A stretch of DNA of 22,716 nt, from positions 1-22,716 of the IMG/VR virus record IMGVR_UViG_3300010155_000105; one strand, given 5' to 3'. A program made the translations under genes and the position numbers. Below the pieces are notes generated by a model. The model made no database searches and was not told the origin of the DNA. It worked only from the letters and a program-made list of their open reading frames with translations. Origin of the DNA: a virus. Every line of letters begins with the position of its first letter. Within the stretch, counting starts at the first letter, position 1. Below, one piece after another: positions 2,713 through 22,716 of the stretch.

Positions 2713-2922
2713 ATGGCAGATACAAGAAATATTAACTTGTTAAATAATGGAGAATTTACATCAAGAGATGTGACTTCTTCTAATGTTGGAGAGCTTAGAA
2801 ATGAGCTTGAGATACCAACTGATGCTAATGTAAATGTTGGCGGTACTATTAGACAAAACGATTTCGCTTTGGAAGATGGTGCTTATGTAGCATATACAAG
2901 CAATGATAAAGTTGGTGGATAA
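2713..2922 (+). CDS. Ubiquitin-like beta-grasp protein with C-terminal Gly-Gly
   Basis: A 69-residue protein. The order is strand (RNINLLNN), strand (EFTSRDV), helix (NVGELRNELEIP, 24-35), strand (ANVNVGG), then FALEDGAYVAYTSND and a final KVGG. This is the MoaD/ThiS/ubiquitin-like layout, where 'vgeLR..L.ip.da.v.V.G' and 'L.DGD.V....' are family hallmarks. It ends exactly in Gly-Gly, so no proteolytic maturation is needed before activation. The genes that follow encode E2-like, JAMM and E1-like proteins, exactly the partners expected. Likely role: a modifier adenylated by the E1-like protein and joined to a protein target. Target unknown; conjugation (rather than sulfur transfer) is inferred from the presence of an E2. 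A 120-base gap containing a folded element separates it from the E2 gene. Confidence 0.82.
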   Translation: MADTRNINLLNNGEFTSRDVTSSNVGELRNELEIPTDANVNVGGTIRQNDFALEDGAYVAYTSNDKVGG

Positions 2923-3042: not shown

Positions 3043-4506
3043 ATGGAATATTTCAATGGAATAAGAGAGGTTGATGTCTCTGATATTGATTGTTTAAAGA
3101 ATATGACACAAGAGACAGCAAATGCAATAGCAACAGGTCCACAAGACGCTTTCTTTACATTATTAGATAGATTTAATGATGATTTAAATTATTATATAAA
3201 TGATACAATAGATGTTACAGACAAATGGAACTGGAAACCAGGAACATATGATAAAATAGATAAAATGATACTAAAAAAACTCAATTTTAGTAAAAAATCA
3301 AATGGCATCTATAATAAAATTAGTAAAATAAGAGAAAGAAGTAATTATTTAAACTATGTGATGAGAAATGCTCAAGAACTAGAAATTCAAAAGTATAGAT
3401 TAAAGCAATCTGGTTTAAGTAAGAATGTTAATATTGCTGATTTTCAAGACAAAGCTAATAAATTAGTAGATACAATAAATACACAATGCAGTTTAGTAAA
3501 TGATTTAACTGAAGGCAAAGTAATTATTACATCTTATATTAGCGATAATTTTGATAATAGATTAACACCAATATATTTAGATATTAAAATGTATGGATTA
3601 ACATTATCTATTCATTCTGGTGATTCATCAATACAGGATATAAGGTTACAACCTATTCATTTAATAATGAAATATCCATTTAGACATTATATTAACAATC
3701 TAAGCACAAGCTGGAAAATTGTTGGAGAATACGGAGAAAATGATGTTAATATCAGATTTCCATATATATCAACATCTTATAGAGAGTATGACAATAGTTT
3801 TGGAACTGTATGTTTAGATAAATATAATGATGATATTAAAAAATCATTTATGAAATTAGACTATATTCAAATGGCTATGCATTTAATGAATTGGGCTCAA
3901 TATTATCATATAAATCATTCTAATCCTTATAATAACCTAAAGTTTCTTCATTATGGATTACCAAAAGGATATTCTAAAGAATATAGAAGTACTTTATCTA
4001 GCATTGAATCTGACTGTGCATCTAGAATAGCTCGTATATACCGTCCAGACGATTCTATCACTTATTATAATGAGTTAGAAGATAATACTTCTATTTGTAA
4101 TGGTATTGAATGTCAATTAAAGAGTAGTTGTAATGCATTTTCAGACAAAGATATTATTATGAATCATATTTCAAATCAATCAGATGAACATTGTCAAATT
4201 GAATCAATGATAGGACATATAGTTGAATATATTAATTCAATAGAAGAACGTAATAAAAGTTTTATCGCAGAAGAATCAGTTTATTATCTTGGTTGTGATT
4301 TTGGTGAACCATTTATTGAATTTCTATTTAGATGTATATATCAATGGTGTACTCCATTTAAAGGCGATGAAAGTATAAAAGCTTTTTATAAGCAACTTGT
4401 TCGTTATTATCATTATGAAACAAATGGTGTTGAAATTGAAAGAAATGAAGATGAAATTAAACAAGAAATGTTAGCATGGGCTACAAACCCAGAAAGGATG
4501 GGATAA
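3043..4506 (+). CDS. Large E2-like (ubiquitin-conjugating fold) protein
   Basis: A 487-residue protein with TTAGGAG seven bases before ATG. Residues ~1-150 are helical. Residues ~160-305 look like an E2/UBC fold: beta-strands, then FPYIS (239-243), FGTVCLDKYNDD (253-264) with candidate catalytic Cys257, a helix (LDYIQMAMHLMNWAQYY) and SNPYNN (293-298). This matches the 'HPhi...G.iCLd...........sPYn' order of E2s, including prokaryotic ones. Residues 305-487 form a C-terminal extension with several cysteines (352, 357, 363, 384, 418, 431, 436) that might bind metal or act in transfer; this is speculation. Typical E2s are ~150 residues, so this is unusually long. Its stop is one base from the JAMM gene start. 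No E3 is visible; the flanking domains might select targets. Confidence 0.72.
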   Translation: MEYFNGIREVDVSDIDCLKNMTQETANAIATGPQDAFFTLLDRFNDDLNYYINDTIDVTDKWNWKPGTYDKIDKMILKKLNFSKKSNGIYNKISKIRERSNYLNYVMRNAQELEIQKYRLKQSGLSKNVNIADFQDKANKLVDTINTQCSLVNDLTEGKVIITSYISDNFDNRLTPIYLDIKMYGLTLSIHSGDSSIQDIRLQPIHLIMKYPFRHYINNLSTSWKIVGEYGENDVNIRFPYISTSYREYDNSFGTVCLDKYNDDIKKSFMKLDYIQMAMHLMNWAQYYHINHSNPYNNLKFLHYGLPKGYSKEYRSTLSSIESDCASRIARIYRPDDSITYYNELEDNTSICNGIECQLKSSCNAFSDKDIIMNHISNQSDEHCQIESMIGHIVEYINSIEERNKSFIAEESVYYLGCDFGEPFIEFLFRCIYQWCTPFKGDESIKAFYKQLVRYYHYETNGVEIERNEDEIKQEMLAWATNPERMG

Positions 4507-4507
4507 A

Positions 4508-5401
4508 ATGGAACTAGATAAACTATTTTATATACCAGAGAAAGACTGGTATGAGCTTCAAGGATGGGCTACAATAGCTTATGATGAAGACAAGAATGAA
4601 ATATCAGGACTGATGACAGCAATACCTCAAAAAGATGGTAGATATAAACTCTGTGATGTAGAAATCCTTAAACAGGAGAATACAGGGTCAAATACCACAT
4701 TAGATGGTGATGCTGTAGCTGCGTATAAGATGAAATATGCTATGAAATACCAAAATAAAAGTATGAAATATGTTTGGTGGCATTCTCATCATACTATGGA
4801 TGCGTTTTGGTCAGGAACTGATACAAATGAGATTGATGAATGGAAAAATAGTAGTTTTTCATTAGCTTTAGTAATTAATCTTAAACAAGAGTATAAATTC
4901 AGAGTAAGTATTTGGAATGCTTGTGGATTACCTGTAGAACAACACTATGATATTCCTTTAACTGTAGAGAGAAAGAATGGTGTAAAGGTTACAGATAAGA
5001 TGAAAACTCTTTATGAAGAACTTTGTGATAGTCCTACTTATGGTGGTAATATAAGGCAAACTGGATTTAATTACAATAATCATCTTGTTAGAACTAATAA
5101 TGCTCATTTGGAAATGGAAAATGCTTTCACTGAAACTGTTGAGAAATTAGATAATCTAAATGATAGCTTTATGGAAGCAGGGCTCAATGTTAAGCAATGG
5201 CAATCAGCAATTAATGATATGAATAAGATTCTTAAAGAAAAGAAATTTCCATTTAGCATTAAAGAACCAAAAGGCTCTAAACAAGAGATTATTAATAAAT
5301 TAATGGTTACTATATCAGGAGATATGATTAAGTGGGAAGATGAAGCTATAAAGAATCAAGTAGAACAAAGTTATATCTGGGGAGGTACATATGGATATTA
5401 A
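4508..5401 (+). CDS. JAMM/JAB-family metallopeptidase
   Basis: A 297-residue protein. The JAMM motif is complete: Glu31 (NEISGLM), then WHSHHTMDAFWSGTD giving His92, His94, Ser102 and Asp105 in exact H-x-H-x7-S-x2-D spacing. Members are zinc isopeptidases or peptidases that trim Ubl precursors or remove Ubls from targets. Because the neighbouring Ubl already ends in Gly-Gly, deconjugation or quality control is the likelier role here. Residues ~165-297 are a helical extension (EMENAFTETVEKLDNLNDSF) that is not part of the minimal JAB fold and may bind the E1 or E2. It starts one base after the E2 stop and overlaps the E1 gene by 11 bases, so the three are translated as a unit. Confidence 0.9.
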   Translation: MELDKLFYIPEKDWYELQGWATIAYDEDKNEISGLMTAIPQKDGRYKLCDVEILKQENTGSNTTLDGDAVAAYKMKYAMKYQNKSMKYVWWHSHHTMDAFWSGTDTNEIDEWKNSSFSLALVINLKQEYKFRVSIWNACGLPVEQHYDIPLTVERKNGVKVTDKMKTLYEELCDSPTYGGNIRQTGFNYNNHLVRTNNAHLEMENAFTETVEKLDNLNDSFMEAGLNVKQWQSAINDMNKILKEKKFPFSIKEPKGSKQEIINKLMVTISGDMIKWEDEAIKNQVEQSYIWGGTYGY

Positions 5402-6053
5402 TAGTCGTTCAGCAGGAATTATTGACTGTTTAACTGATTATACATTTCATATACTTGGATGTGGGGCTATTGGTAGCTCTGCATCCACTCAACTTGCTAG
5501 AATGGGAGCTGATAAATTTGTATTATATGATAATGATATAGTTGAATCAGCAAATGTAGGAGTATCACAATATACATTATATGATGTAGGTCATGCTAAA
5601 GTACATTCTTTAGAAACTAAACTTAAAGATATTAATGACCTTACAGAAATAGTATGTGAAGATGGATTGTTTAAAGAGTTATTATATAAAGGAAACAATC
5701 AAGATATAGTTATTATAGGATTTGACAATATGAAATCAAGACTAGATGCTGTATCTGAATGTTCTAAATATAAACTTAAATTGTTAATTGATGGTAGAAT
5801 GGGTGCTGAACATTACCAACAGTATACATTTGCTAAACCTAATTACAATGATTACATTAAAACTTGGTATGCGGATAAAGATGGAAGTAGTGAACCTTGC
5901 AATATGAAAGCTACAAGTTATTGTTCAAACATGTCAGGGAGTTTTATAGCAAATACCATTCGTAAAGTGTTGACTCGTCAACCTTATGAAGTCGCTTTGT
6001 CATTTAATTTTCCCACTATGACAGTAGAGAAAAATACTTGTTATAAAGCTTGA
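5391..6053 (+). CDS. E1/ThiF-like adenylating enzyme
   Basis: A 220-residue Rossmann-type protein. ILGCGAIGSSAS (21-32) is the nucleotide-binding loop and YDNDIVESANVGVSQ (46-60) the acidic D-x-D region. Lys70, and FDNMKSR (111-117) carry the remaining family positions. Candidate catalytic cysteines are Cys170 (SSEPCNMKATSY) and Cys178. It is shorter than ThiF/MoeB (~250). The usual 'N..RQ' arginine finger is replaced by NVGVSQ, which is odd and may mean an arginine is supplied in trans by a partner. It starts inside the JAMM gene (11-base overlap), has GGAG about nine bases upstream and ends in TGA. Role: adenylation and thioester capture of the Ubl ending at 2922. Activity is inference from motifs and neighbourhood. 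Confidence 0.87.
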   Translation: MDINSRSAGIIDCLTDYTFHILGCGAIGSSASTQLARMGADKFVLYDNDIVESANVGVSQYTLYDVGHAKVHSLETKLKDINDLTEIVCEDGLFKELLYKGNNQDIVIIGFDNMKSRLDAVSECSKYKLKLLIDGRMGAEHYQQYTFAKPNYNDYIKTWYADKDGSSEPCNMKATSYCSNMSGSFIANTIRKVLTRQPYEVALSFNFPTMTVEKNTCYKA

Positions 6054-6156: not shown

Positions 6157-6843
6157 ATGGCTTTGAAAAAAGTTAAAAGAAAAATTGTTTCTGAAAATCC
6201 TAAAAGTTTGTTATTATATGGAGCTCCTAAAGTAGGTAAAACATCTATTTTAAGTAAATTGGATGGTTGTCTAATTATAGATACCGAACAAGGAGCTAAT
6301 ATGATAGAAGGATATATAGAAACAGTAAATAACAGAGAAGAGTTAATAAAACTTCTAGAAAATGCTCAAAAAGGACATGATTATAAATATGTCGCTATAG
6401 ATACAATAGACAGAATAGCAGATTGGGCTGAAAAAGCAGTTTGTGAAGCCGAAGGTGTTACAAATGTAGCAGATTTAGCATTTGGTAAGGGCTTTGGTAT
6501 GGTAAGAGAAAAAGTGCTAAATACAGTATCTATAGTTAAAGAAATATTTCCTCATGTTATTATTATTGGACATAGGAAATGGGCTAAAGCAATAGTAGAA
6601 ACTAAAGCTATAGTAGAGCCAGAAAGCTTGAATTTAACAGGTAAGTTAAAGAATATGTTAATGGCAGATTGTGATGCTATAGGATATGTGTATAGAGATG
6701 AAGATAAAGGTAAATTAATGGTAACCTTTAAATCAAACGATGCACTAGAAGCAGGTAGTAGAAGTCCTCATTTGGCAGGCAAAGAAATGGAATTTAAATG
6801 GAATCTTATATATAAGGAGAAGAAAAGAAATGGCCATATTTAG
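6157..6843 (+). CDS. Sak4-like RecA-fold ATPase (AAA_24 type)
   Basis: A 228-residue protein with Walker A GAPKVGKT (22-29), an IIDTEQGA segment after it (40-47), Walker B YVAIDTID (78-85), and FPHVIIIGHRK (131-141) as the sensor strand. This is the arrangement of phage Sak4/AAA_24 recombinases, which with a phage ssDNA-binding protein promote strand annealing and recombination-linked replication. Length fits the family. AAGGAG precedes the ATG. It stops at TAG 14 bases inside the next gene, which encodes a likely ssDNA-binding partner. Confidence 0.87.
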   Translation: MALKKVKRKIVSENPKSLLLYGAPKVGKTSILSKLDGCLIIDTEQGANMIEGYIETVNNREELIKLLENAQKGHDYKYVAIDTIDRIADWAEKAVCEAEGVTNVADLAFGKGFGMVREKVLNTVSIVKEIFPHVIIIGHRKWAKAIVETKAIVEPESLNLTGKLKNMLMADCDAIGYVYRDEDKGKLMVTFKSNDALEAGSRSPHLAGKEMEFKWNLIYKEKKRNGHI

Positions 6844-7432
6844 ACCAGAAATGAACAGTGGAAGCAGTAGCTTCTATGGAGTATGTGAAATAGCAATTAA
6901 AGGATTTAAAGATAGAAGTTCTGAATTTGATTGGGCTGATATATTTATTGATGTAATTGTTAATCAAAAAGGTAGTGAATACACTAGGAATATTAAAGTA
7001 GCAGGTTCAGTAGAAAAGGATACAGATGGTAATATTACTGGTGGTAGTGTACTTAAAAGAATGTATGTTTTCTTTGATGCTATTGGATGTAAAGCAGGAT
7101 TAAATATTAAGGGTGAATGGGAAGATGAAAAAGGCGAAAAGATTAAAGATATTGGTAAATATTTAGAAGATAATTTCGTAGATGTTACATTTCCTGATAG
7201 TGGAATAAATTATAATTTCATTGCTTATGTTTATAAAGAAAAGCCAAAGAAAGAAGGCGATAAAGCCTGGACAAGAGTATATCATAAAATATATTCAAAT
7301 AATAAAGCTAATGTTGAAAAATTACTCAAAGATGTTACTTGGTTAAAAGGTAGAGGAGTAATTAAAGAAGCTACTGATATACCTGCTAATAGTGGGAATT
7401 CATTACAAGGAAGTGGATTGTCTAATTTATAA
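6830..7432 (+). CDS. Probable single-stranded DNA-binding protein
   Basis: A 200-residue protein, overlapping the Sak4-like gene by 14 bases and the primase-helicase gene by one (TAATG). It is beta-rich in the first 150 residues (YGVCEIAIKGFKDRSSEFDW, ADIFIDVIVN) and has a flexible, Ser/Asn-rich C-terminus (NSGNSLQGSGLSNL). Position between Sak4 and the primase-helicase is where phages place their SSB. The fold is not provable by eye and the tail lacks the classic acidic SSB end. An alternative is a Sak4-associated protein of unknown function. Confidence 0.55.
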   Translation: MAIFRPEMNSGSSSFYGVCEIAIKGFKDRSSEFDWADIFIDVIVNQKGSEYTRNIKVAGSVEKDTDGNITGGSVLKRMYVFFDAIGCKAGLNIKGEWEDEKGEKIKDIGKYLEDNFVDVTFPDSGINYNFIAYVYKEKPKKEGDKAWTRVYHKIYSNNKANVEKLLKDVTWLKGRGVIKEATDIPANSGNSLQGSGLSNL

Positions 7433-9195: not shown

Positions 9196-9388
9196 AATTA
9201 TAAAAATAATCGTTATTGATGATGCCTATTTATTATACCTATTTAATCATATTTTAATAGGAATGATAAATAAAAGAGATGAAGGAATAGCAAAAGGAAT
9301 AGTTATAGGAATATGGAGATTCCAATTTCAAATAACTCTTGGATATTCTGATAAATTACATAGAATAAGTGAAGTTGGGCAAGCTTAA
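9188..9388 (+). CDS. Small protein of unknown function
   Basis: 66 residues, starting 8 bases before the primase-helicase stop and ending in a TAATG overlap with the HNH gene. AGGAGAAGTT precedes the start. The N-terminal half is hydrophobic (IIKIIVIDDAYLLYLFNHIL) and the rest has alternating charged and aromatic residues. No family recognised. The two-sided overlap supports expression as part of the replication operon. Confidence 0.6.
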   Translation: MNKIIKIIVIDDAYLLYLFNHILIGMINKRDEGIAKGIVIGIWRFQFQITLGYSDKLHRISEVGQA

Positions 9389-9876
9389 TGAAAAATAAGA
9401 TAAAAAATAGTTCTAGGGGACGAAAGTCCCCTAGTAATATAACTCGCTGGGAAAAGATATTTAAAAGAAAATTGAAGAGATTTCATAAACATTTTGCTAA
9501 AAAGACTTTTCATAGATTAATGAAAAAATCTTCAACATTAAGGTCAACATTAAAAAGAAGGAGTAGAGAATATGAAGTGGAATTTGACATATCATTGGAA
9601 GAAGTTCGTGAATTATTATATAGATTTTATGGACATACCTGTAATTATTGCGATGCGCGTTTGTTGGTTAACAATATGGTATGCGACCATATCCTTCCTT
9701 TGTCTATGGGGGGTAGTTCAGTTCCTAAGAATCTTCAAATGATATGTATGAGATGTAATACAAGAAAAGGACCTTTAACTAATAAGAATTTTAAAAGAAT
9801 ACTTAAATGGCTTTCGCATCAAGATGAAGAATTAAGAAAATATGTTTTAAAGAAAATGGCTAGTAAAGATTTCTAA
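9388..9876 (+). CDS. HNH endonuclease with two Cys pairs
   Basis: A 162-residue basic protein. The first 65 residues are Lys/Arg-rich. The HNH core follows: CNYC (85-88), CDHILPLSMGG (99-109) with Asp100-His101, KNLQMICMRCNTRKG (114-128) with Cys120, Cys123 and Asn115. This is the McrA-like zinc HNH layout. It lies at the end of the replication operon, where such genes often sit as mobile elements or packaging/recombination nucleases. A perfect 9-bp hairpin with a GAAA loop (9413-9434) lies inside codons ~9-16. TAATG overlaps occur at both ends. Confidence 0.88.
   Translation: MKNKIKNSSRGRKSPSNITRWEKIFKRKLKRFHKHFAKKTFHRLMKKSSTLRSTLKRRSREYEVEFDISLEEVRELLYRFYGHTCNYCDARLLVNNMVCDHILPLSMGGSSVPKNLQMICMRCNTRKGPLTNKNFKRILKWLSHQDEELRKYVLKKMASKDF
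9413..9434 (+). promoter_or_regulatory. GAAA-capped hairpin inside the HNH gene start
   Basis: CTAGGGGAC and GTCCCCTAG form a perfect 9-bp, G-C-rich stem closed by a GAAA tetraloop, in a region that is otherwise strongly AT-rich. It begins 25 bases after the HNH start codon. It would be very stable in the transcript and may slow translation or transcription of the nuclease, or mark an RNase cleavage site. Confidence 0.6.
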
Positions 9877-13257: not shown

Positions 13258-13496
13258 TAATATTTAACTCCTACTCCAGGAAGTTTATATCTTTCACCCT
13301 TTTCTATAGCTTCTTTCTTTTTTCTTCTCTGTCTTGCCAAATCTTGAACAGGTAAGCCAGCAACTTTTTCTATAACTCTTGTAGGATTATGAATTAAACC
13401 TTGGTCTGGTTGAGCAATATCTCTTATCATTCTACCAAAAGGAAATAAAGTCCAAGCAGTATATTCGCTAAATTTACTATAATCATCATCAATCTA
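13257..13496 (-). other. In-frame extension of the giant gene past TAG
   Basis: After the TAG at 13494-13496 the same frame stays open for 78 codons to TAA (13257-13259). The product begins IDDDYSKFSEYTAWTLFPFG, continues RMIRDIAQPDQGLIHNPTRV and ends in a basic tail. It is clearly protein-like: 'YT.WT.FPFGR..RDi' and 'NP.RviEK.aGLP' resemble the C-terminal ends of large phage virion proteins and read on naturally from the upstream residues. No ribosome binding site or early start codon exists for independent translation (the first Met is at 13430 without a site). Its TAA overlaps the next ATG. Options: a nonsense mutation, a sequencing error, or readthrough/suppression. Confidence 0.7.
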
Positions 13497-16400
13497 TTGT
13501 CTTAAAGCTGATACAGGGAATCTAGCAATAGGAGGAGTGATTACTTGTAATGGAGCTATTTTACTAGGATACATACCAAAGAAAGCCTTATCTCTTTCTT
13601 TTTCATCTCCAAATAACCATTCTGAAGTATCTTGAAACCAATTCCATGGAGATGGTAAAGCATTGTCAAATAAACTAAAGGTAAACATATTAGCAAGTGC
13701 TAATACAAATAAATCAATTTCCATAGTTCTTTTATATCTTTGGAATGCTTCAGAACCTGGTTTAAAACCATATAATTTTGCTCCTCTCATGATATCATTA
13801 CGAAAACGGGCACTATTCCAAGCGAAAAGCTGAAACCTAGACATAACCTTACCTAAAGCAGTTCTTGCGAAGAAAGGCCTAAATGGAGCCTCATATAGGA
13901 ATTGTGTAGCTTTTACACCTTTTTTACCCATTTCTATTAAAAATGGATGGTCAGGGTTTCTTATAGCTCCTCCATACCTTTCCCAAGCCCTAATATAATG
14001 AGCCATAAAAGCATCTCTTCTAAGCATTCTTTCTGGAACAGACATAAATTTAGATGCTAATCGTGTAACTTCTTCACCTAAATTATATTTCTTGCCTAAT
14101 GAACGAATCTCTTTTCTTGCAATAGGGTCATTAGAATTAATCTTTTCAGATAATTCTCCAACAAAATCTTGTATATTTTTCTTACTTACTTCTCTTCCTA
14201 ACCCTAATTCATGGACAAGAAACTCTGGAACAACACCTTTACTAATAACAAATTTTTCTACATCTTTCATAGAAGTCCAATTATGATTAATTCTTTGTAA
14301 ATATTTAATATTTCTTGCTTTTCTTAAAGCAGTTAATCCTGCTGACTGAATAGTATGTAAACTACCTCCCCATATATTAGTAATAGATGATTTTGGATGA
14401 GCGAGTAATGATGCTAATTCCCATTTAGCCTCTAGATTTGACCAAGCTCTTATATCTTGGTAAGTAAAATCTTTTAATTCCTCTGGCAACTCACCTTCCC
14501 TAATGCCTAATTTTTTTCTTATTTTATTAACTCTATCTAATACTTTATTATCAGCAAACCAAGCATAAGGAGTTCCTTTTATTTTCATTTTTGGGTCATT
14601 ATAAATTTCCTCTGGAATAATATCAGGTTGTCCCATAGCTCCTTGAACATATAATTTAAAAAATTTATCCCATCTTTTAGCAAGTTCTGGTCCAAATTTC
14701 TTAGACATTCTATGATAAGATTTGTCAAGTACATCTCTTGACATTATTTGTGTTAACTGTCTATAATAAGTTTGAGTTAGATTTCTTGTATATGCATTAA
14801 GCACATTTATATCAGTAGCCCAACCAGCAATATGTCCTTTCCTAGAAAACATAGAACCAAATTTTTGGTTCATATTTGTCCATTTAATATCAGTTTTTTC
14901 TTTCTCTTTCTGTTTTTTCTTAATATCAGCTATATCTTTATAAGCTTGTTCCATATCAAGAACATCAATTCTATCCCAATCTTGCATATCTTGAAATTCC
15001 CAATCACCAGTTAAAGTTTTATGTCTAACAGTTATATTAGCTATTTGCTTTTTTTTCTGTTCTTCAGTTAAATCAGGTCTTTGTCTTATATATTCGATAG
15101 CTTTTTGCATAGACCTTTCAGCTTGTGACCTACTAAAAAACATATGAGGCCAATAAGCTTCAGGATTCCTTTGTCCAGTTTTACCAATATGCATTGCTTC
15201 AAAATCTTCTTTATATTTTCCCTTACTTAAATCAGCCATCATTGAACGAGCCATGTGTCTCATACCATCAATGCCAAGTTGTACAGGAATATCCTGACCT
15301 TTTTCAAGAGCATTACCCATATCTTTGACAAATTTTCTCCAATTCATTTTAGGTTGAGTCTGTTCTACACCATCATAATAAATACCAGTTCCATATTTGT
15401 CTTTCTCTATATATTCATCACGCATGGATTTGTCTCCAACTATCAATTTATGATATTCTTCAAACTTTTTAGTCAATTTATCTCTAATGCCTATTAGATT
15501 ATTTTTCTTACTTCCAAAAACTATTTCTTGCCCACTAACAGTAACTCTCTCACCAGCATCATTAGTTAAAGTAAACTTTTGTTTTCTAAGTTTTTCCCAA
15601 TTATGCTTTTTCGCTGCCTCTCTATAAGAAGTATCATAATTTTTTTTCCACATATCTTTTATAGGTTGAAGTTCATCAGTTTTATCAATAGATTCTTTTT
15701 CGCCTTTTTCTCTTCCTCTAACAGCAATATCGAATAACGCTTCTCCTTCTTTTAATTCTCTAATATTAAGAAAATCAGCTTCAGTTTTAGAAGCTAATTC
15801 TTCTGCTTTAGCAGTAGCAAGACTACCTGATTTATGTACCCAATTTTGTAAAATTTCTAAAAAATAAGTGGGTCTTCTAATTGGACGAGCTTTAGCAGTA
15901 CCATCCTTAGTTAAAAAATAACCTTCTTCCTTTAACCATTTTATATCATAAGCCATTAATTCTCTATTAACAGATTCTGGAAACATCCACCAATACCTTC
16001 TCTTAATTTCAGGTGCACCTTTTTTACCAAACATTTTCTGAAACATAGTACCACTTTCAACTTCTTCTAAAAATTCATTAACTAATATAAAATCTTGTCT
16101 ATTCATTGTATTTAAATCTTTAGCTCTACCAGTAGCTTCAAACATTATACCACCTAAAACTTCATTAAGATTATTACCAAGTTTATTGTTATGTTTCTTT
16201 AAATTAGAAGCCAAACGAACCATCAATTCTTTATCTTTTTGAGTTATATCTGCCTTTTTAATACCAGCATATGCTTCTCCTCTTAAAACACCTTCAACCA
16301 TATCATCAACTTCAGAAACTTCTCCTATATTATTTTCTTTAGCTGCTTTATTAACATTTTCAATTTCTTTATTAATATCTTTAGAACTAGGTACTTTCCA

Positions 16401-19400
16401 AGTATCTACAAGAGCATCATTCATCATTTCAAAATGGTCTCTCATAGCTTTAGAAGAAACAGCTTGAGAATTAAAGCCAACTCTACTTAATCTAGTATCT
16501 GCAGATTCATTAATTGCTTGAGTGATAACATCTAATACAGCAGGATTATATATTTTTAGATTTATTTTACTTAATAAATTTTGTAATTCTTGAACTTTAC
16601 CTCTTTTTAAACTACCTATTAAAAGATGGTCAAATAATTCTTTTTCAGAATCATTCTTTAAACCCCTTTTAAAAATTATAATCTCATCATCAATTTTCTT
16701 TTGGTCCCAAGAAGCAGACCTTTTATCCCCAAGTAATTCTTTCTGTTTGGGAATTTGTCCTTTTTCTTTAGCAATATAATCATCAACATAATCAAATGCT
16801 TTTTGTAAATCTTGTTCTTCCTCAGTTCCTAAATAAGCATCATATTTAACTTTTCTTCTTTCTTTGACATTTAAGTAACTTCTTGTCTTAATTTGTTCAA
16901 CTTTTCGAGTAATATAATCAATTCTAGTACCAGTTAATTCCCCAGTTCCCTTAGTTCTATCTAGTATTCTTTTAATATTTAAAATTGTAGATATATCTGC
17001 CAAATCATTAGATAGAAAATCTTCAGCTTGTCTAGCCAATAAACTTAAATGAGATAATCTTTTCTTCTCATTAAAGAACCAAGTATCTGGTTTAATATAT
17101 TTTTTACCACTTTTTGTAGTTGTAATACTATTATTTATATCTTTCATAACCTCTTTAGCCCATATAGTTCCTCTAATAGCATCAAGATAATTTATTAGTC
17201 CTCTAGTAGAAGTATCAGCAGCAAGCCTTCTTCTTACATCTCTATCAAATAATTTATTTTTAACTATTACATCTATATGGTTATTATAAGGCACTTTAAA
17301 TGAACTTCTATCCATATGCTTTCTTAACCAATTAAATTTAACACCAGTTATTTTATTAATTTCATCATAATAATCTTTAATACGCACTCTATCAACTCTA
17401 TTAAATATACTATCAGACCAATCTAATCCTTCTAATGTACTTACCATTTTTGGTAGCATAGTATTTATTTGCTTAGGGTCTAAATTAGCAATAGAAGAAG
17501 CTAGTTCATTAACTTCATCCATAGTAAATCTTCTACCTTCAGCATAGTTTCTACCAAAATAAGCACTATTCATATTTTTAAATGTTTCAACTAATCCTTT
17601 TTTTAATTGCCAATTTTTTAATTTAGATTCAGCACCTTTAGGAGCATTTTCAAATCTTTTTGTTTTTGGATTGTAAACTTCTACTTTTGATATATTAAAA
17701 TAAGCATCATGTAAACTTTTAAAAAAGAAATTAGAATCTTTCAATCCAACTTCATCTAATGGGTCAGATGCAAAAGCTATTTGAGCTCTTGTTAAATCCC
17801 TTTGTCTTTTTCTCTCACTATCTGATTCTTTAGGCGTTCTTGTAACTCTATAAGTTTTTTTAGAAAATTTATCATAAAAATTATATCTATCAATTTTACC
17901 ATCAGCTTCCATTAGAGCACTATATGAAGACTTTAAAACTTGTGCATTAGATACTGCAACACCAAGTCTATTTCTACCATCAACAGCTCCTTCAGATGCT
18001 TTTATCCTAGAATAAGGAGAAAAATATAAGGCTTTACTTGTCTTTAAAGGATTATCTTTTCCTGCACCTAATGTTAATTCATCTCTAAATGCATCTTTAT
18101 TATTTTGAACATCCCTTTTAGAACCTTTTCCTTCATAAAATTCTTCTTTTTGTGCGTGTATAGCTTCTTTCCAAGATTTTTTCATACCATAGCCTTTGCC
18201 ACTTTCTGCTCTACCACCAAAATAGACAAATGCTTCATCACCATCTAAATCAGCACCACCTAAAGCTCTCATAGTTCTTGCATGCATCATGATACCATGT
18301 CCTTCTCTATCAGTAAATCCTTTAAAAGTTAATCTATGAGCACCAGAAATACTATCCATAGGAACACGAAGAACAACAGCATCAAATACTTCTTGTGCTA
18401 TATCTTTATATTCAGCTGAATCTTTTAATCTCCATAATTTACCTAAAGGAATATGTTTATCATTAGGTAATTTAATTAAAGTATCTTTATATGCATTATC
18501 TAAATAGAAAATAGTATCATTTGTATTTAAATCTTTAAAATCTTCTTGCATCCATTTATCATAAGGTCTTATTCTAGCAACGGCAGAATTATCTACACTT
18601 GGCCTTGTAGTTGATTTGACAAAATAATTATGTAATACTGCAGCTTTATAATCTCTAAGATACTTATGCATATATCCAGAATATGCAGCCTTACCTTCCA
18701 TTGCTGCTTTTTCTCCTACAAATGCAACTTGTTTTAGCATATTATCAATAGGAGATATTGCTTGTTTCATATCACTTAATGTATTAGCTCTTTCTGCAGC
18801 AGTAATTTCACCTTCTTGAAATTGCATTTCAATATCTTTTTCTATAATTCTAATCATTTTTTGCATAGCTCTTTCAGCAAATAATTCAGCTCCAGGAGTT
18901 TTTAATGCTTTAATAAGGTCTGTTGTTCCTAAATTTTCTAAATTTTCTACCAAATCATCTACTACATTTCTATCAAGAGTCTTTAAATAATTATCTAGTT
19001 TAGTATTATATGTATCATTACCCTTAAATGATTTTTGTATAATCTCTTGATGTATATCACTAATGATAGATTTGTCTATTGTTTCATAACCATATTGATG
19101 AAGATTAGTAAATAATTGCTTTACCCATATTTGCTTTTGTAACATATGAGGAGTATTTGTTACAGATGTAGTATACTTAATACTACCAGGATTTAGGTTG
19201 TAAATAGGTGTTTTTCCTATATCTAAACCACCTGTAGTTTCAGTTAAAGGTTTAAATGTATCTGTTGCTTCATCATATACTTGCTTATTAAATGCAGCCC
19301 ATTCTATTTTAGACCTTACTGGGTCAAAGTAATCCTTAGTTTTACCTGTACGTGCATTTACTGTCATAAATGCACCCCCTCTTCTTGTAATCATTTTCGA

Positions 19401-22400
19401 AGTACCTACTCTAGGGTCAGTAGGATTAGGATTATCTACATAATCTTCCCATTCTCTTTCTATAGCTCTAGAAGATTTAATAATTTTCTGTATATACTTA
19501 TTTACTGTATAATCTCCTGCTGTTCTAGTGCCATATTGCTTAGCAGAAGAAGTCATCACCATCATATGAAGACCTTTTCTTGCCATTTCCTTACTAGCTT
19601 GTTTACCAGCAGTATGCATCATATATTTACCAAGTAATGCTCCATGTTCAGAATTTGGGTCTATAATAAATGATTTATTTTGTCCTGATACAGGATGAGC
19701 AGCATCTTCATTAATAACCCTAATAATGTCATCTCTTACTATAATAGCTCCATCAACATGTTCAGGTAAATCTACGTTTTTAGCTAATAAGCTAGATAAT
19801 TTACTCTTTTTAGGGTCCTTGATGAGAACATAATTAAAATCTCCATTATTTAAATCATTAATAGCCTTGTTTTCTTTTTGCAATTCAGTTAATCTATTAG
19901 AAATAAAGTTTTTATCACCACTATATCCACCCATTAACCATATTTGTGCTCTTTTATTATAAGCTATAGCATTAGCAATAAAACCTTCACCTGGCTCATC
20001 AGGATTATGCTTCATAATCTTTTCTATATTTTCAGGAGTATTTTTCAAACCATTTAAAGATAATTCATATAATACATTTGAATGTAACATTTTATCAAAT
20101 GCTTCACTAGAAATACCTAATTCTCTTCTAGCTGCATCTTTATCGTTTGCAAGTAATGAAGAATAATTTTTATCAACTTTTTTTAATTCTTTTCGTACTT
20201 TAGTTATATAAGTTCCAATTTTAGTTTTAGATGAGCTTTGAGTTTTTGGATGGAATTTGACAAATACCAACCTTCCTTTATCCCCTTGCCCTCCAAGAGC
20301 ATACATATTATGCTCATTATACATTCTATTAATGATATCTTTTTTAACACTTATTACCTTAGCTTCAGCTTCTTTTTTAGACAATTCTTCAGTATGTCTA
20401 TAATATTCAAATAATCTATCTAAAGGAACATCTACAGGTAGTCCATTCTTCTTTTTTCCTGTAACAGTATCAAATATAACTAAAGGAGTTCTAAATTCCT
20501 TTCCACCATATGTTCCTCCTTCAGCTCTAAATATATCTTCAATTAATTTAGGAGATTCTATTTGCCTTAAAGGATTGCCTGCTAAGCTAACAGGATTATC
20601 TGGATGAGTAATTTGTAATAATGAGTTGCCATAGCTCCTAACATATGTAACATTTTGACCTAAATTTTCAACAGTAAGCCATCTCCTAACTTGTTGCTTT
20701 GCAATATCAGATAATTTGCCAAATTCTTTTTCCATATCTTTAATTGCTTCTAAAGATTTGACATCTTTATCACCCTTTTTAATATATTTTCTAATAATGT
20801 CTTCTGTTATTCTTCCTAATTCTAATATTTTATTCCTTCTATTACTAGAATCTTTCCATATATCTTTTAAATTCTCAGTAGCAAATCTTTCTGATTTTTG
20901 CATTAAAGGGAAATCATCAGCTTTCATTCCAGTATCTACAACATCAGAAGATTCGACAATTTCACCAGTAATTTCATCAATATATCCAGTAGGACCTAAC
21001 TCTTTTAAAACTTTTATTTCCCCTCTAAGACTTTCTATTTCTTTTTGCTCTTCCTTTATTATAGCTTCTAAATCTTTTAACCTAATTTTATCAACTTTTC
21101 CTTCATTAATAACTTCTTGCATATCTAAAATATTTTTCTCTTTAGTATCAATTTCTGCTGCTTTTCTTTTTTGTGCTTGTAAATTCTTTTGACCATATTT
21201 TTTAACTGGAGTAGGGACAGTTCTCACTTCTTTAGGTTGTTCTGGAGCTTCGCCAAATGTTTCTCTTGCAACACTTTTAATAGCTTCTTTACCAGCTTTT
21301 GTAATTCTATTATAAGTTTTTCCTTTATATTTATGAGGAATAGGACCTAGTAATGCGGGATTTCTTGTCAATTTAGGTACTATATTTTCACCCATTGGGG
21401 TAAATCTATTAGCATTATGGTTCCATTCATACCATCTTTGTTGTTTTTTAGATTGGTCAAAGACATATATTTTATCTAATCCTTTATCTATAGCCATTTG
21501 AATACCCCAACCTGGAGCTCCCTTAACACTTCTACCATTTAAATGTGCATCTTTACCAGTTCTACCAGTATCTATTTCTCCAATGGCAAATACACTACCA
21601 GCTTTCTCTATTTGCCAAGCATTTTTTAAGATTCCTTCATAACTTTGAGGAATAAGTTTACTAATATCTCTATTTAAAATTTCATTAGCTTTATCTACTA
21701 CAAAAGCCTTATCATATAATTCATCTATAGTTAAATCTCTTTGTATTGAAGTTGTAGGTATTTTACCTGCTTTGTATCTTTTTTCATAATCATAAATTTT
21801 ATCGGGAGTAAGATATTGTATAACGGGTACACCATATTTATCCATTACTCTAGCCCATTCAGTTTCAACTTCAGGAGAACCTCCAGAAGTAGCTACATTA
21901 ATATCTTCGTGAGCCTTAGTTTTTGTTCTTCTTTGACGACCTTTTCTAACTGCATGTAAAACTCTATATCCAACATCTTCAATTTTATCTTCAGGTATTT
22001 GGTCTAATATACCCAATAGTTTCATTTCATAATATGCCATACCCTTATTATATGCTTCTTCAGGATACATTTTTCTCCATAATTTAGTAGCTTCATCTCT
22101 AACTATTTCAGGCTCTTTTTCCCATCCTTCAATTAATTCAGGGTCTCTTTCTATATCTAATTTAATATCTTTTTGTTTTTTATCTGTACCAGTAGCTTGT
22201 TCTACTCCTCTTTGTACTACTTTATGAGCACGAGCTCTAGACCAAGGCATTTCCTTGCCACCAAAATAAGCACCAAGCAAGTATTCATATACTTGCTCTG
22301 GAGTAGTAGCTCCTCTAGCAGTAGAAGGCATTCCCATAAATATAGAACCAGATAATGCTCTTAAAGCCTTATCTCCTGCTTTAGTTCCTGGGATTATATT

Positions 22401-22716
22401 ACCTATACCTCTAAATACACCACCTGCAACTGCTCCTCCTGCAAAACTATGCATCATTTCATCTACACCACCCCATATAGAGGATATAGAACTAGCAACT
22501 CCTAAATGAAATGCTCCTTCTGCCATATGTTTAGCTTTTTCTCCAAGCATAAATTTACTAGCAGTATCTACAGCTTTAAATCTACTTCCTGTACTAGATT
22601 TAAGAGCAGGTCTAATTACAGATTCTTTAGCATGCTTTGTAACCCAATCAGCTCCTCTCATTGGAATAGATTTTAATCCACCAATTGCCCTAGAAGCCTC
22701 AAGTAGTCTTTTAGAT
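13494..22716 (-). CDS. Giant polyvalent virion protein with RNA polymerase-like core (5' partial)
   Basis: The frame is open to the window end, 18 codons beyond the ATG at 22661, so the N-terminus is missing; numbering here is from that Met (3,055 residues). Residues ~45-115 are Gly/Ala-rich and hydrophobic. Residues ~355-415 form a Rossmann-like segment (GWGIQMAIDKG, then IYVFDQ to 403). Residues ~487-553 are a coiled coil. QNKSFI and LLGKYMMH (Lys1012) mark a possible first polymerase barrel. GGADLDGDEAF carries D-L-D-G-D at 1471-1475; the stretch before it (VVLRVP, EGHGIMMH) lines up with the NADFDGD context of cellular beta-prime, where the aspartates bind catalytic Mg. The C-terminal ~300 residues (IWGGSLHTIQSAG, RPFFARTALGKVMSRF, a hydrophobic stretch 2984-2999) look like ejected virion proteins. 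Likely injected with DNA to transcribe early genes. Polymerase activity is inferred from local motifs. Confidence 0.78.
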   Translation of the reverse strand, partial: SKRLLEASRAIGGLKSIPMRGADWVTKHAKESVIRPALKSSTGSRFKAVDTASKFMLGEKAKHMAEGAFHLGVASSISSIWGGVDEMMHSFAGGAVAGGVFRGIGNIIPGTKAGDKALRALSGSIFMGMPSTARGATTPEQVYEYLLGAYFGGKEMPWSRARAHKVVQRGVEQATGTDKKQKDIKLDIERDPELIEGWEKEPEIVRDEATKLWRKMYPEEAYNKGMAYYEMKLLGILDQIPEDKIEDVGYRVLHAVRKGRQRRTKTKAHEDINVATSGGSPEVETEWARVMDKYGVPVIQYLTPDKIYDYEKRYKAGKIPTTSIQRDLTIDELYDKAFVVDKANEILNRDISKLIPQSYEGILKNAWQIEKAGSVFAIGEIDTGRTGKDAHLNGRSVKGAPGWGIQMAIDKGLDKIYVFDQSKKQQRWYEWNHNANRFTPMGENIVPKLTRNPALLGPIPHKYKGKTYNRITKAGKEAIKSVARETFGEAPEQPKEVRTVPTPVKKYGQKNLQAQKRKAAEIDTKEKNILDMQEVINEGKVDKIRLKDLEAIIKEEQKEIESLRGEIKVLKELGPTGYIDEITGEIVESSDVVDTGMKADDFPLMQKSERFATENLKDIWKDSSNRRNKILELGRITEDIIRKYIKKGDKDVKSLEAIKDMEKEFGKLSDIAKQQVRRWLTVENLGQNVTYVRSYGNSLLQITHPDNPVSLAGNPLRQIESPKLIEDIFRAEGGTYGGKEFRTPLVIFDTVTGKKKNGLPVDVPLDRLFEYYRHTEELSKKEAEAKVISVKKDIINRMYNEHNMYALGGQGDKGRLVFVKFHPKTQSSSKTKIGTYITKVRKELKKVDKNYSSLLANDKDAARRELGISSEAFDKMLHSNVLYELSLNGLKNTPENIEKIMKHNPDEPGEGFIANAIAYNKRAQIWLMGGYSGDKNFISNRLTELQKENKAINDLNNGDFNYVLIKDPKKSKLSSLLAKNVDLPEHVDGAIIVRDDIIRVINEDAAHPVSGQNKSFIIDPNSEHGALLGKYMMHTAGKQASKEMARKGLHMMVMTSSAKQYGTRTAGDYTVNKYIQKIIKSSRAIEREWEDYVDNPNPTDPRVGTSKMITRRGGAFMTVNARTGKTKDYFDPVRSKIEWAAFNKQVYDEATDTFKPLTETTGGLDIGKTPIYNLNPGSIKYTTSVTNTPHMLQKQIWVKQLFTNLHQYGYETIDKSIISDIHQEIIQKSFKGNDTYNTKLDNYLKTLDRNVVDDLVENLENLGTTDLIKALKTPGAELFAERAMQKMIRIIEKDIEMQFQEGEITAAERANTLSDMKQAISPIDNMLKQVAFVGEKAAMEGKAAYSGYMHKYLRDYKAAVLHNYFVKSTTRPSVDNSAVARIRPYDKWMQEDFKDLNTNDTIFYLDNAYKDTLIKLPNDKHIPLGKLWRLKDSAEYKDIAQEVFDAVVLRVPMDSISGAHRLTFKGFTDREGHGIMMHARTMRALGGADLDGDEAFVYFGGRAESGKGYGMKKSWKEAIHAQKEEFYEGKGSKRDVQNNKDAFRDELTLGAGKDNPLKTSKALYFSPYSRIKASEGAVDGRNRLGVAVSNAQVLKSSYSALMEADGKIDRYNFYDKFSKKTYRVTRTPKESDSERKRQRDLTRAQIAFASDPLDEVGLKDSNFFFKSLHDAYFNISKVEVYNPKTKRFENAPKGAESKLKNWQLKKGLVETFKNMNSAYFGRNYAEGRRFTMDEVNELASSIANLDPKQINTMLPKMVSTLEGLDWSDSIFNRVDRVRIKDYYDEINKITGVKFNWLRKHMDRSSFKVPYNNHIDVIVKNKLFDRDVRRRLAADTSTRGLINYLDAIRGTIWAKEVMKDINNSITTTKSGKKYIKPDTWFFNEKKRLSHLSLLARQAEDFLSNDLADISTILNIKRILDRTKGTGELTGTRIDYITRKVEQIKTRSYLNVKERRKVKYDAYLGTEEEQDLQKAFDYVDDYIAKEKGQIPKQKELLGDKRSASWDQKKIDDEIIIFKRGLKNDSEKELFDHLLIGSLKRGKVQELQNLLSKINLKIYNPAVLDVITQAINESADTRLSRVGFNSQAVSSKAMRDHFEMMNDALVDTWKVPSSKDINKEIENVNKAAKENNIGEVSEVDDMVEGVLRGEAYAGIKKADITQKDKELMVRLASNLKKHNNKLGNNLNEVLGGIMFEATGRAKDLNTMNRQDFILVNEFLEEVESGTMFQKMFGKKGAPEIKRRYWWMFPESVNRELMAYDIKWLKEEGYFLTKDGTAKARPIRRPTYFLEILQNWVHKSGSLATAKAEELASKTEADFLNIRELKEGEALFDIAVRGREKGEKESIDKTDELQPIKDMWKKNYDTSYREAAKKHNWEKLRKQKFTLTNDAGERVTVSGQEIVFGSKKNNLIGIRDKLTKKFEEYHKLIVGDKSMRDEYIEKDKYGTGIYYDGVEQTQPKMNWRKFVKDMGNALEKGQDIPVQLGIDGMRHMARSMMADLSKGKYKEDFEAMHIGKTGQRNPEAYWPHMFFSRSQAERSMQKAIEYIRQRPDLTEEQKKKQIANITVRHKTLTGDWEFQDMQDWDRIDVLDMEQAYKDIADIKKKQKEKEKTDIKWTNMNQKFGSMFSRKGHIAGWATDINVLNAYTRNLTQTYYRQLTQIMSRDVLDKSYHRMSKKFGPELAKRWDKFFKLYVQGAMGQPDIIPEEIYNDPKMKIKGTPYAWFADNKVLDRVNKIRKKLGIREGELPEELKDFTYQDIRAWSNLEAKWELASLLAHPKSSITNIWGGSLHTIQSAGLTALRKARNIKYLQRINHNWTSMKDVEKFVISKGVVPEFLVHELGLGREVSKKNIQDFVGELSEKINSNDPIARKEIRSLGKKYNLGEEVTRLASKFMSVPERMLRRDAFMAHYIRAWERYGGAIRNPDHPFLIEMGKKGVKATQFLYEAPFRPFFARTALGKVMSRFQLFAWNSARFRNDIMRGAKLYGFKPGSEAFQRYKRTMEIDLFVLALANMFTFSLFDNALPSPWNWFQDTSEWLFGDEKERDKAFFGMYPSKIAPLQVITPPIARFPVSALRQ

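Follow-up and report, generated by a model that had tools for sequence, protein, structure and literature searches.

The locus described here raises the question of whether a viral gene of unusual length encodes an E2 enzyme and, if so, how such an enzyme would choose its targets when no E3 gene accompanies it. The window, that is the whole stretch of 22,716 nucleotides that was analysed (IMG/VR virus record IMGVR_UViG_3300010155_000105, positions 1 to 22,716), carries a 487-residue reading frame for which no family match was obtained in Pfam, NCBIfam, PHROG or PADLOC, while a sequence search of the PDB with the profile of this protein was also without match. As no library family was available, the E2-like call was tested through homologues and structure. 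Judged from its homologues, structural model and gene context, the gene is predicted to encode, very probably, the E2 enzyme in a pathway of ubiquitin-like conjugation that the phage carries, and the genes concerned are the following.

2713..2922, plus strand: ubiquitin-like protein (Ubl) of 69 aa with a beta-grasp fold, ending in SNDKVGG (AlphaFold, Foldseek, homologues)
3043..4506, plus strand: E2-like protein of 487 aa (homologues, AlphaFold2 model, VIA-align)
4508..5401, plus strand: JAB/JAMM metalloprotease, predicted Ubl-processing/deconjugating enzyme (Prok-JAB, 8.4e-5, just under the curated cut-off)
5391..6053, plus strand: E1/ThiF adenylating enzyme of 220 aa (ThiF PF00899, 1.3e-18)

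The Ubl gene, the product of which terminates in K-V-G-G, lies immediately upstream of the E2 gene; a single base separates the E2 and JAB genes, and the first 11 bases of the E1 gene overlap the 3' end of the JAB gene. Upstream of the Ubl gene is a 112-aa reading frame with an N-terminal hydrophobic segment (2372-2710), which close relatives also retain.

Homologues were gathered from viral contigs with E2, Ubl, E1 and helicase queries, and the E2 family thus assembled comprises 70 distinct full-length DNA sequences, corresponding to 61 non-redundant proteins whose identity to the window E2 falls to 16%. Such length is typical of the family, all 61 members measuring between 427 and 670 residues; the family lies outside every library searched, and its proteins are roughly three times as large as an ordinary E2. 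Only four residues, i.e. Gly32, Gln34, Pro240 and Cys257, are fully invariant. On the basis of the alignment and the structural model, the following parts of the protein can be distinguished.

3043..3432, plus strand: residues 1-130, helical N-terminal region (alignment, model)
3433..3957, plus strand: residues 131-305, UBC (E2) core (model; E2 matches over 133-307)
3757..3768, plus strand: residues 239-242, FPYI, in place of the HPN motif (alignment)
3811..3813, plus strand: codon of Cys257, the predicted thioester cysteine (invariant in 61/61)
3958..4503, plus strand: residues 306-487, helical C-terminal region, the fastest-evolving part (model, dN comparisons)
4015..4131, plus strand: C325-x26-C352-x4-C357-x5-C363, predicted metal-binding motif (homologue alignment)

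The N-terminal region contains two near-invariant stretches, G32-P33-Q34 and T59...W62-N-W64-x-P66-G67. In the AlphaFold2 model, which was built on the 61-sequence alignment (pLDDT 87.5, pTM 0.76), residues 15-155 are all helical, the UBC elements follow, and helices again extend to the C-terminus. The UBC elements appear in the order long helix, four-strand meander (160-212), active-site loop and two helices (259-270 and 274-286). In the VIA-align comparison the E2 fold falls on residues 133-307 and the best match is UBE2K (2o25; Z 5.8, 135 residues, 3.9 A); the great majority of the 50 rows are E2/UEV chains, and no row exceeds a middling score (Z < 8). A Foldseek comparison of the whole E2 model with the PDB returned no significant match, so that the UBC match comes from VIA-align only; in view of the middling Z values and the silence of Foldseek, the fold call leans jointly on how consistent the VIA-align matches are, on Cys257 being invariant and on the neighbouring genes. 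With moderate strength, residues ~133-307 are modelled as a UBC fold. The original prediction of an E2-like core is therefore upheld by the AlphaFold2 model and by the dominance of E2s among the VIA-align matches, although the boundaries given for it (160-305) are better drawn at ~133-307. It had also pointed to Cys257 as the residue whose conservation should be checked, and this cysteine is present in 61 of 61 homologues; neither a variable Cys257 nor a non-UBC model of the core was encountered.

The surroundings of this cysteine deviate from the eukaryotic pattern. The HPN tripeptide is replaced by FPY in the window E2, the eukaryotic His and Asn being absent, and the family pattern at residues 239-242 is H/F/Y-P-Y-I/L/V, with Pro240 in 61/61 and Tyr241 in 56/61 homologues, and with H (22), F (21) or Y (3) at position 239 among 46 sequences. 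It has been reported that HPN is not universal among prokaryotic E2s (PMC1779556). Eukaryotic E2s such as UBE2K, Ubc13 and UBE2E1 share with the window protein the UBC fold (133-307) and a cysteine located after an H/F-P-x motif, whereas the window protein exhibits no significant sequence match to them, lacks HPN and possesses large added N- and C-terminal regions.

The remaining members of the gene set are each recognizable. JAB residues E31, H92, H94, S102 and D105, i.e. the JAMM residues, are invariant in 91-94 homologues. In E1 the nucleotide motif is invariant (homologue sets of about 90-103 sequences), as are C170 and C178 (102/102 homologues), and the protein is a single short adenylation domain, without the extra domain by which large E1s recruit an E2. 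Relatives of E1 were found in more than 300 stretches of viral contigs, and alignment scans for E2 and E1 across about 85,000 prokaryotic (bacterial and archaeal) genomes produced no relative. The motif K-x-G-G occurs in 62/62 distinct Ubls, being terminal in 39 of these and followed by 1-60 unrelated residues in the other 23; such tails imply processing and favour a JAB-mediated step, while the window Ubl stops at GG and would need no trimming.

The arrangement of the four genes is strictly maintained. The order Ubl-E2-JAB-E1 was observed in 124 loci (a figure that includes overlapping stretches of the same contigs; the full-length E2 DNA sequences number 70 when counted as distinct), it is shared by all related loci of sufficient length, and no other order was seen. 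Where relatives of the adjacent helicase have sufficient sequence on the upstream side, E1 was found in 55/55 and JAB in 47/47, and the cassette is thus core, not accessory, in this phage lineage. Three of the helicase-relative loci (L255, L256 and L258) first seemed to be without E2, yet at the expected place they carry a small protein ending in S-G or S-G-V together with a divergent E2, a protein of 500-578 aa with the motif HPHI/L...C-x-G. Their E2 profile aligned exactly at the active site with that of the window family (hhalign 84%, E 7.7e-6), Cys257 being matched to the Cys of HPHI..CMG in these bridge sequences, and also, weakly (E 0.023), with crAss gp78 at H-x-H...C-x-G. In four further loci (L162-L165) JAB and E1 are present, but neither E2 nor Ubl was detected ahead of them by profile; these are probably divergent copies.

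On the 3' side of E1 there are genes for Sak4, an unnamed SSB-like protein and a primase-DnaB helicase. The unnamed gene, located between Sak4 and primase-DnaB (6830-7432), encodes a conserved protein of 200 aa that also occurs in relatives and has no family match; its position suggests a single-strand DNA-binding protein. This setting points to a use of the cassette early in infection, with replication or host proteins as its targets. The last 9 kb of the window are filled by a 3055-aa reading frame on the opposite strand (13494-22661, minus strand), which has no match in Pfam and none of significance in PHROG.

Equivalent cassettes are present in crAss001-like phages and in the cultured Flavobacterium phage Fpv1. 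The window E1 is ~30% identical to ThiF-like proteins of crAss001-type phages and of Flavobacterium psychrophilum phages. In crAss001 and seven related records the genes follow each other as gp79 (ubiquitin-like N-terminal domain), gp78 (E2-like), gp77 (JAB) and gp76 (E1), while in Fpv1 a Ubl-like domain ending in K-S-G-G and continued by ~200 residues (gp58) is accompanied by gp57, which carries HSHL...FCIG at the E2 position, by gp56 plus gp54 (JAB), and by gp53 (E1). The crAss001-like (Steigviridae, Asinivirinae) and Fpv1-like phages therefore share with the window Ubl-like, E2-like (with H-S-H...C-x-G), JAB and E1 proteins in the same order and in the replication region, but their Ubl, in contrast to that of the window, has the form of an extended precursor (K-I-K-S-G-A... 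in crAss, ...K-S-G-G-R in Fpv1). The JAB profile match between the window family and the crAss001/Fpv1-type phages is firm (E 6.5e-9), whereas E2 sequence similarity to crAss is marginal (hhalign E 0.025; core score 25 versus a maximum of 18.6 in 100 shuffles). In a structure search of BFVD the window E2 was linked to the cr128_1 gene at the E2 position with a probability of 0.98, the matched protein and that gene agreeing in length at 435 aa, and it matched other crAss-like proteins as well. The INPHARED phages gave no tblastn match to E2, JAB or Ubl, and the Prok-E2_D Pfam model gave none on crAss genomes. Public annotations of the crAss001 and Fpv1 cassette genes read thiamine biosynthesis, metalloprotease or hypothetical. 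In the published papers searched, few of which came from subscription journals, no description of a phage-encoded Ubl-E2-JAB-E1 cassette was found, and two crAss papers make no mention of ubiquitin.

The gene set and order, folds, conserved residues, Ubl tails, rates of evolution and core status were computed here, and the catalytic steps that can be proposed are inferred. JAB would trim Ubl past Gly-Gly in the lineages that have tails. The small ThiF-type E1 would then adenylate the C-terminus of Ubl and hand it on as a thioester, perhaps via Cys170 or Cys178, and transfer to Cys257 of the UBC core may follow, as indicated by fold, invariance and context. Without an E3 gene, the E2 flanks may dock E1 and choose targets; given that E1 has no E2-recruiting domain, the conserved N-terminal region (GPQ and W-N-W-x-P-G) is a candidate for docking E1. 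JAB may finally reverse the modification. In its full form, our tentative reading, to which we assign a probability of about 0.4, is that a large group of phages, ranging from uncultured marine ones to crAss001-like gut phages, possess an ancient, core and reversible Ubl pathway which serves their own infection cycle, with an E2 that combines the activities of an E2 and a target-selecting ligase and has a diversifying C-terminal region. A full pathway for tagging proteins seems to be core to the genomes of hundreds of marine phages and, as homology indicates, of some cultured ones. In bacteria, operons of the ubiquitin-like kind have chiefly been known as defences against phages or as cassettes on plasmids, and here the full set belongs to the phage core. 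If functional, it would mean that phages run their own reversible protein tagging in infection, for which the cultured relatives crAss001 and Fpv1 allow direct testing; if true, this reading also bears on E3-free target choice and on the origin of bacterial ubiquitin-like defences.

Alternatively, the genes may constitute a phage-borne defence of the Bil or CBASS type, which tags the proteins of competing phages or arms the host against superinfection. BilABCD is a bacterial anti-phage defence composed of an ISG15-like Ubl, an E2, a JAB and an E1 (PMC11354881), and hence the same four gene kinds come together in one set as in the window (PMC11354881). A crAss E1 matches BilD (2.5e-5), the window E1 matches part of the CBASS E1-E2 (Cap2) models in PADLOC (1.6e-15), and the E2 C-terminal region evolves fast, all of which would be in line with a defence role. 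On the other hand, BilA is a two-domain ISG15-like protein and the Bil E1 is larger, whereas the window has a single 69-aa Ubl, and Bil protein models do not match the window Ubl, E2 or JAB. The CEHH motif of BilB consists of Cys138, Glu144, His146 and His151 (PMC11354881), and no conserved Glu or His occurs at those offsets past Cys257 in the window E2 family; because this motif and a tandem Ubl are absent, the cassette was not filed as Bil. Type II CBASS Cap2/Cap3 resembles the window in having a related E1 adenylation domain, a JAB partner and no E3 (PMC10097602), but Cap2 is a fused E1-E2 that conjugates cGAS itself, as opposed to separate proteins, a dedicated Ubl and no nucleotidyltransferase in the window. 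Considering furthermore that the cassette is core in its lineage and sits inside the replication module, a defensive function is rather unlikely.

A pathway of sulfur transfer is a second alternative, in which Ubl and E1 would act like ThiS/ThiF or MoaD/MoeB, JAB would trim the carrier and the supposed E2 would be a sulfur-accepting or docking protein. The AlphaFold model of Ubl is a beta-grasp (pLDDT 83) to which Foldseek assigned a probability of 1.00 in the PDB for structures of Mth1743 (1ryj; E 6.6e-4, TM 0.69), ubiquitin (in 7k5j; TM 0.64), ThiS (2lek; TM 0.68) and TtuB, and Ubl models accordingly resemble ThiS, MoaD and TtuB as well as ubiquitin. The weak sequence likeness of Ubl is to ThiS/MoaD sulfur carriers as much as to ubiquitin, one remote Ubl (L268) reaches ThiS PF02597 at 2.9e-4, and E1 is itself a short single-domain ThiF. 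Against this, the surroundings contain no rhodanese, cysteine desulfurase, thiazole or molybdopterin gene, a partner with an E2 fold and an invariant cysteine is present throughout, and Iyer et al. set E2-bearing operons apart from sulfur-transfer operons (PMC1779556), which makes this explanation improbable. Operon type 6d of Iyer et al. 2006 contains Ubl, E2-like, JAB and ThiF genes plus an alpha-helical partner gene (PMC1779556); type 6d/PRTRC and the window thus share four protein kinds and a small Ubl that stands alone and has Gly at its end (PMC1779556), the difference being that type 6d has a separate alpha-helical partner gene while the window-family E2 itself reaches 427-670 aa.

The window cassette has weak matches in NCBIfam to PRTRC_ThiF (4.9e-6) and PRTRC_A, and the PRTRC_B (E2) model does not match the window E2; hhalign also gave none, with only two PRTRC_B sequences used. 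Within those two sequences, PRTRC_B gained no profile support as the parent family of the window E2, and the cassette was not filed as PRTRC. A search for PRTRC_B in two plasmid records gave no match and is uninformative, the gene order of the two Deinococcus PRTRC loci examined differs from that of the window cassette, and the plasmid ThiF matches inspected in detail belonged to CBASS, PRTRC, thiamine or other operons and not to a Ubl-E2-JAB-E1 cassette.

Returning to the proposal of a core phage pathway with a target-selecting E2, rates of evolution were estimated as dN/dS from 14 independent close pairs, the pooled all-pair values having been set aside because they include saturated distant pairs. 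Values are 0.02-0.17 for Ubl in most estimable pairs, mostly 0.03-0.29 for E1, intermediate for JAB (0.10-0.34) and loosest for E2 (0.11-0.60), Ubl and E1 being the most tightly constrained by purifying selection. Within E2, dN of the C-terminal region (306-470) exceeds that of the UBC core in 14/14 pairs (Wilcoxon P = 6e-5). Absence of a separate E3 gene, as originally noted, extends to the cassette of every relative examined, and the suggestion that the extra regions provide target choice gains from this fast C-terminal region, which is consistent with such a role; since dN/dS is rarely >1, relaxed constraint would give the same pattern and fits it equally.

The suggestion of ligase-like transfer through the C-terminal cysteines was not supported. 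E2 has 11 cysteines, of which eight and not the seven first counted lie past residue 305 (325, 352, 357, 363, 384, 418, 431 and 436). Half of these eight (Cys384, 418, 431 and 436) show no conservation and the others form the pattern C-x(~26)-C-x4-C-x5-C, which is complete in 49/61 homologues and resembles a metal site; on sequence grounds, the simplest reading of C325/C352/C357/C363 is likely a structural metal site. Cys357 is near-invariant (60/61) and outlasts its partners, being still there in the 8/61 homologues without Cys325, Cys352 and Cys363, and a special role is hence possible. One such role would be to accept Ubl from Cys257 ahead of the target in the manner of HECT/RBR ligases, which would make the protein an E2/E3 hybrid, and the lack of an E3 gene would agree with it; however, Cys357 is the third cysteine of the metal-like motif in 49/61, residues 306-375 evolve faster than the core, and the motif was not found by eye in the remote cassettes L255, L256 and L258, so that a hybrid mechanism seems doubtful at best. 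The four-cysteine motif was not seen in the crAss001-like and Fpv1-like E2s either. It is highly unlikely that the E2-like protein is a catalytically dead (UEV/RWD-like) scaffold for E1 and JAB, as the loss of the HPN His and Asn and the weak structural match might suggest, considering that Cys257 and Pro240 are among the only four fully invariant residues in homologues down to 16% identity.

Some of these loci contain inserted or interrupted genes. Two HNH-type endonuclease genes (979-1392 and 9388-9876) flank the cassette and the replication region in the window. In cr106_1 (L200, 725-1928) an HNH endonuclease gene is inserted between the Ubl-like domain and the C-terminal extension, and in Fpv1 (L133, 2668-4960) an HNH endonuclease gene on the opposite strand splits JAB into gp56 and gp54 in an intron- or insertion-like manner. 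In one further locus (L039, 4024-4727) the E1 frame is split into two overlapping reading frames, reflecting a frameshift mutation or a sequencing error.
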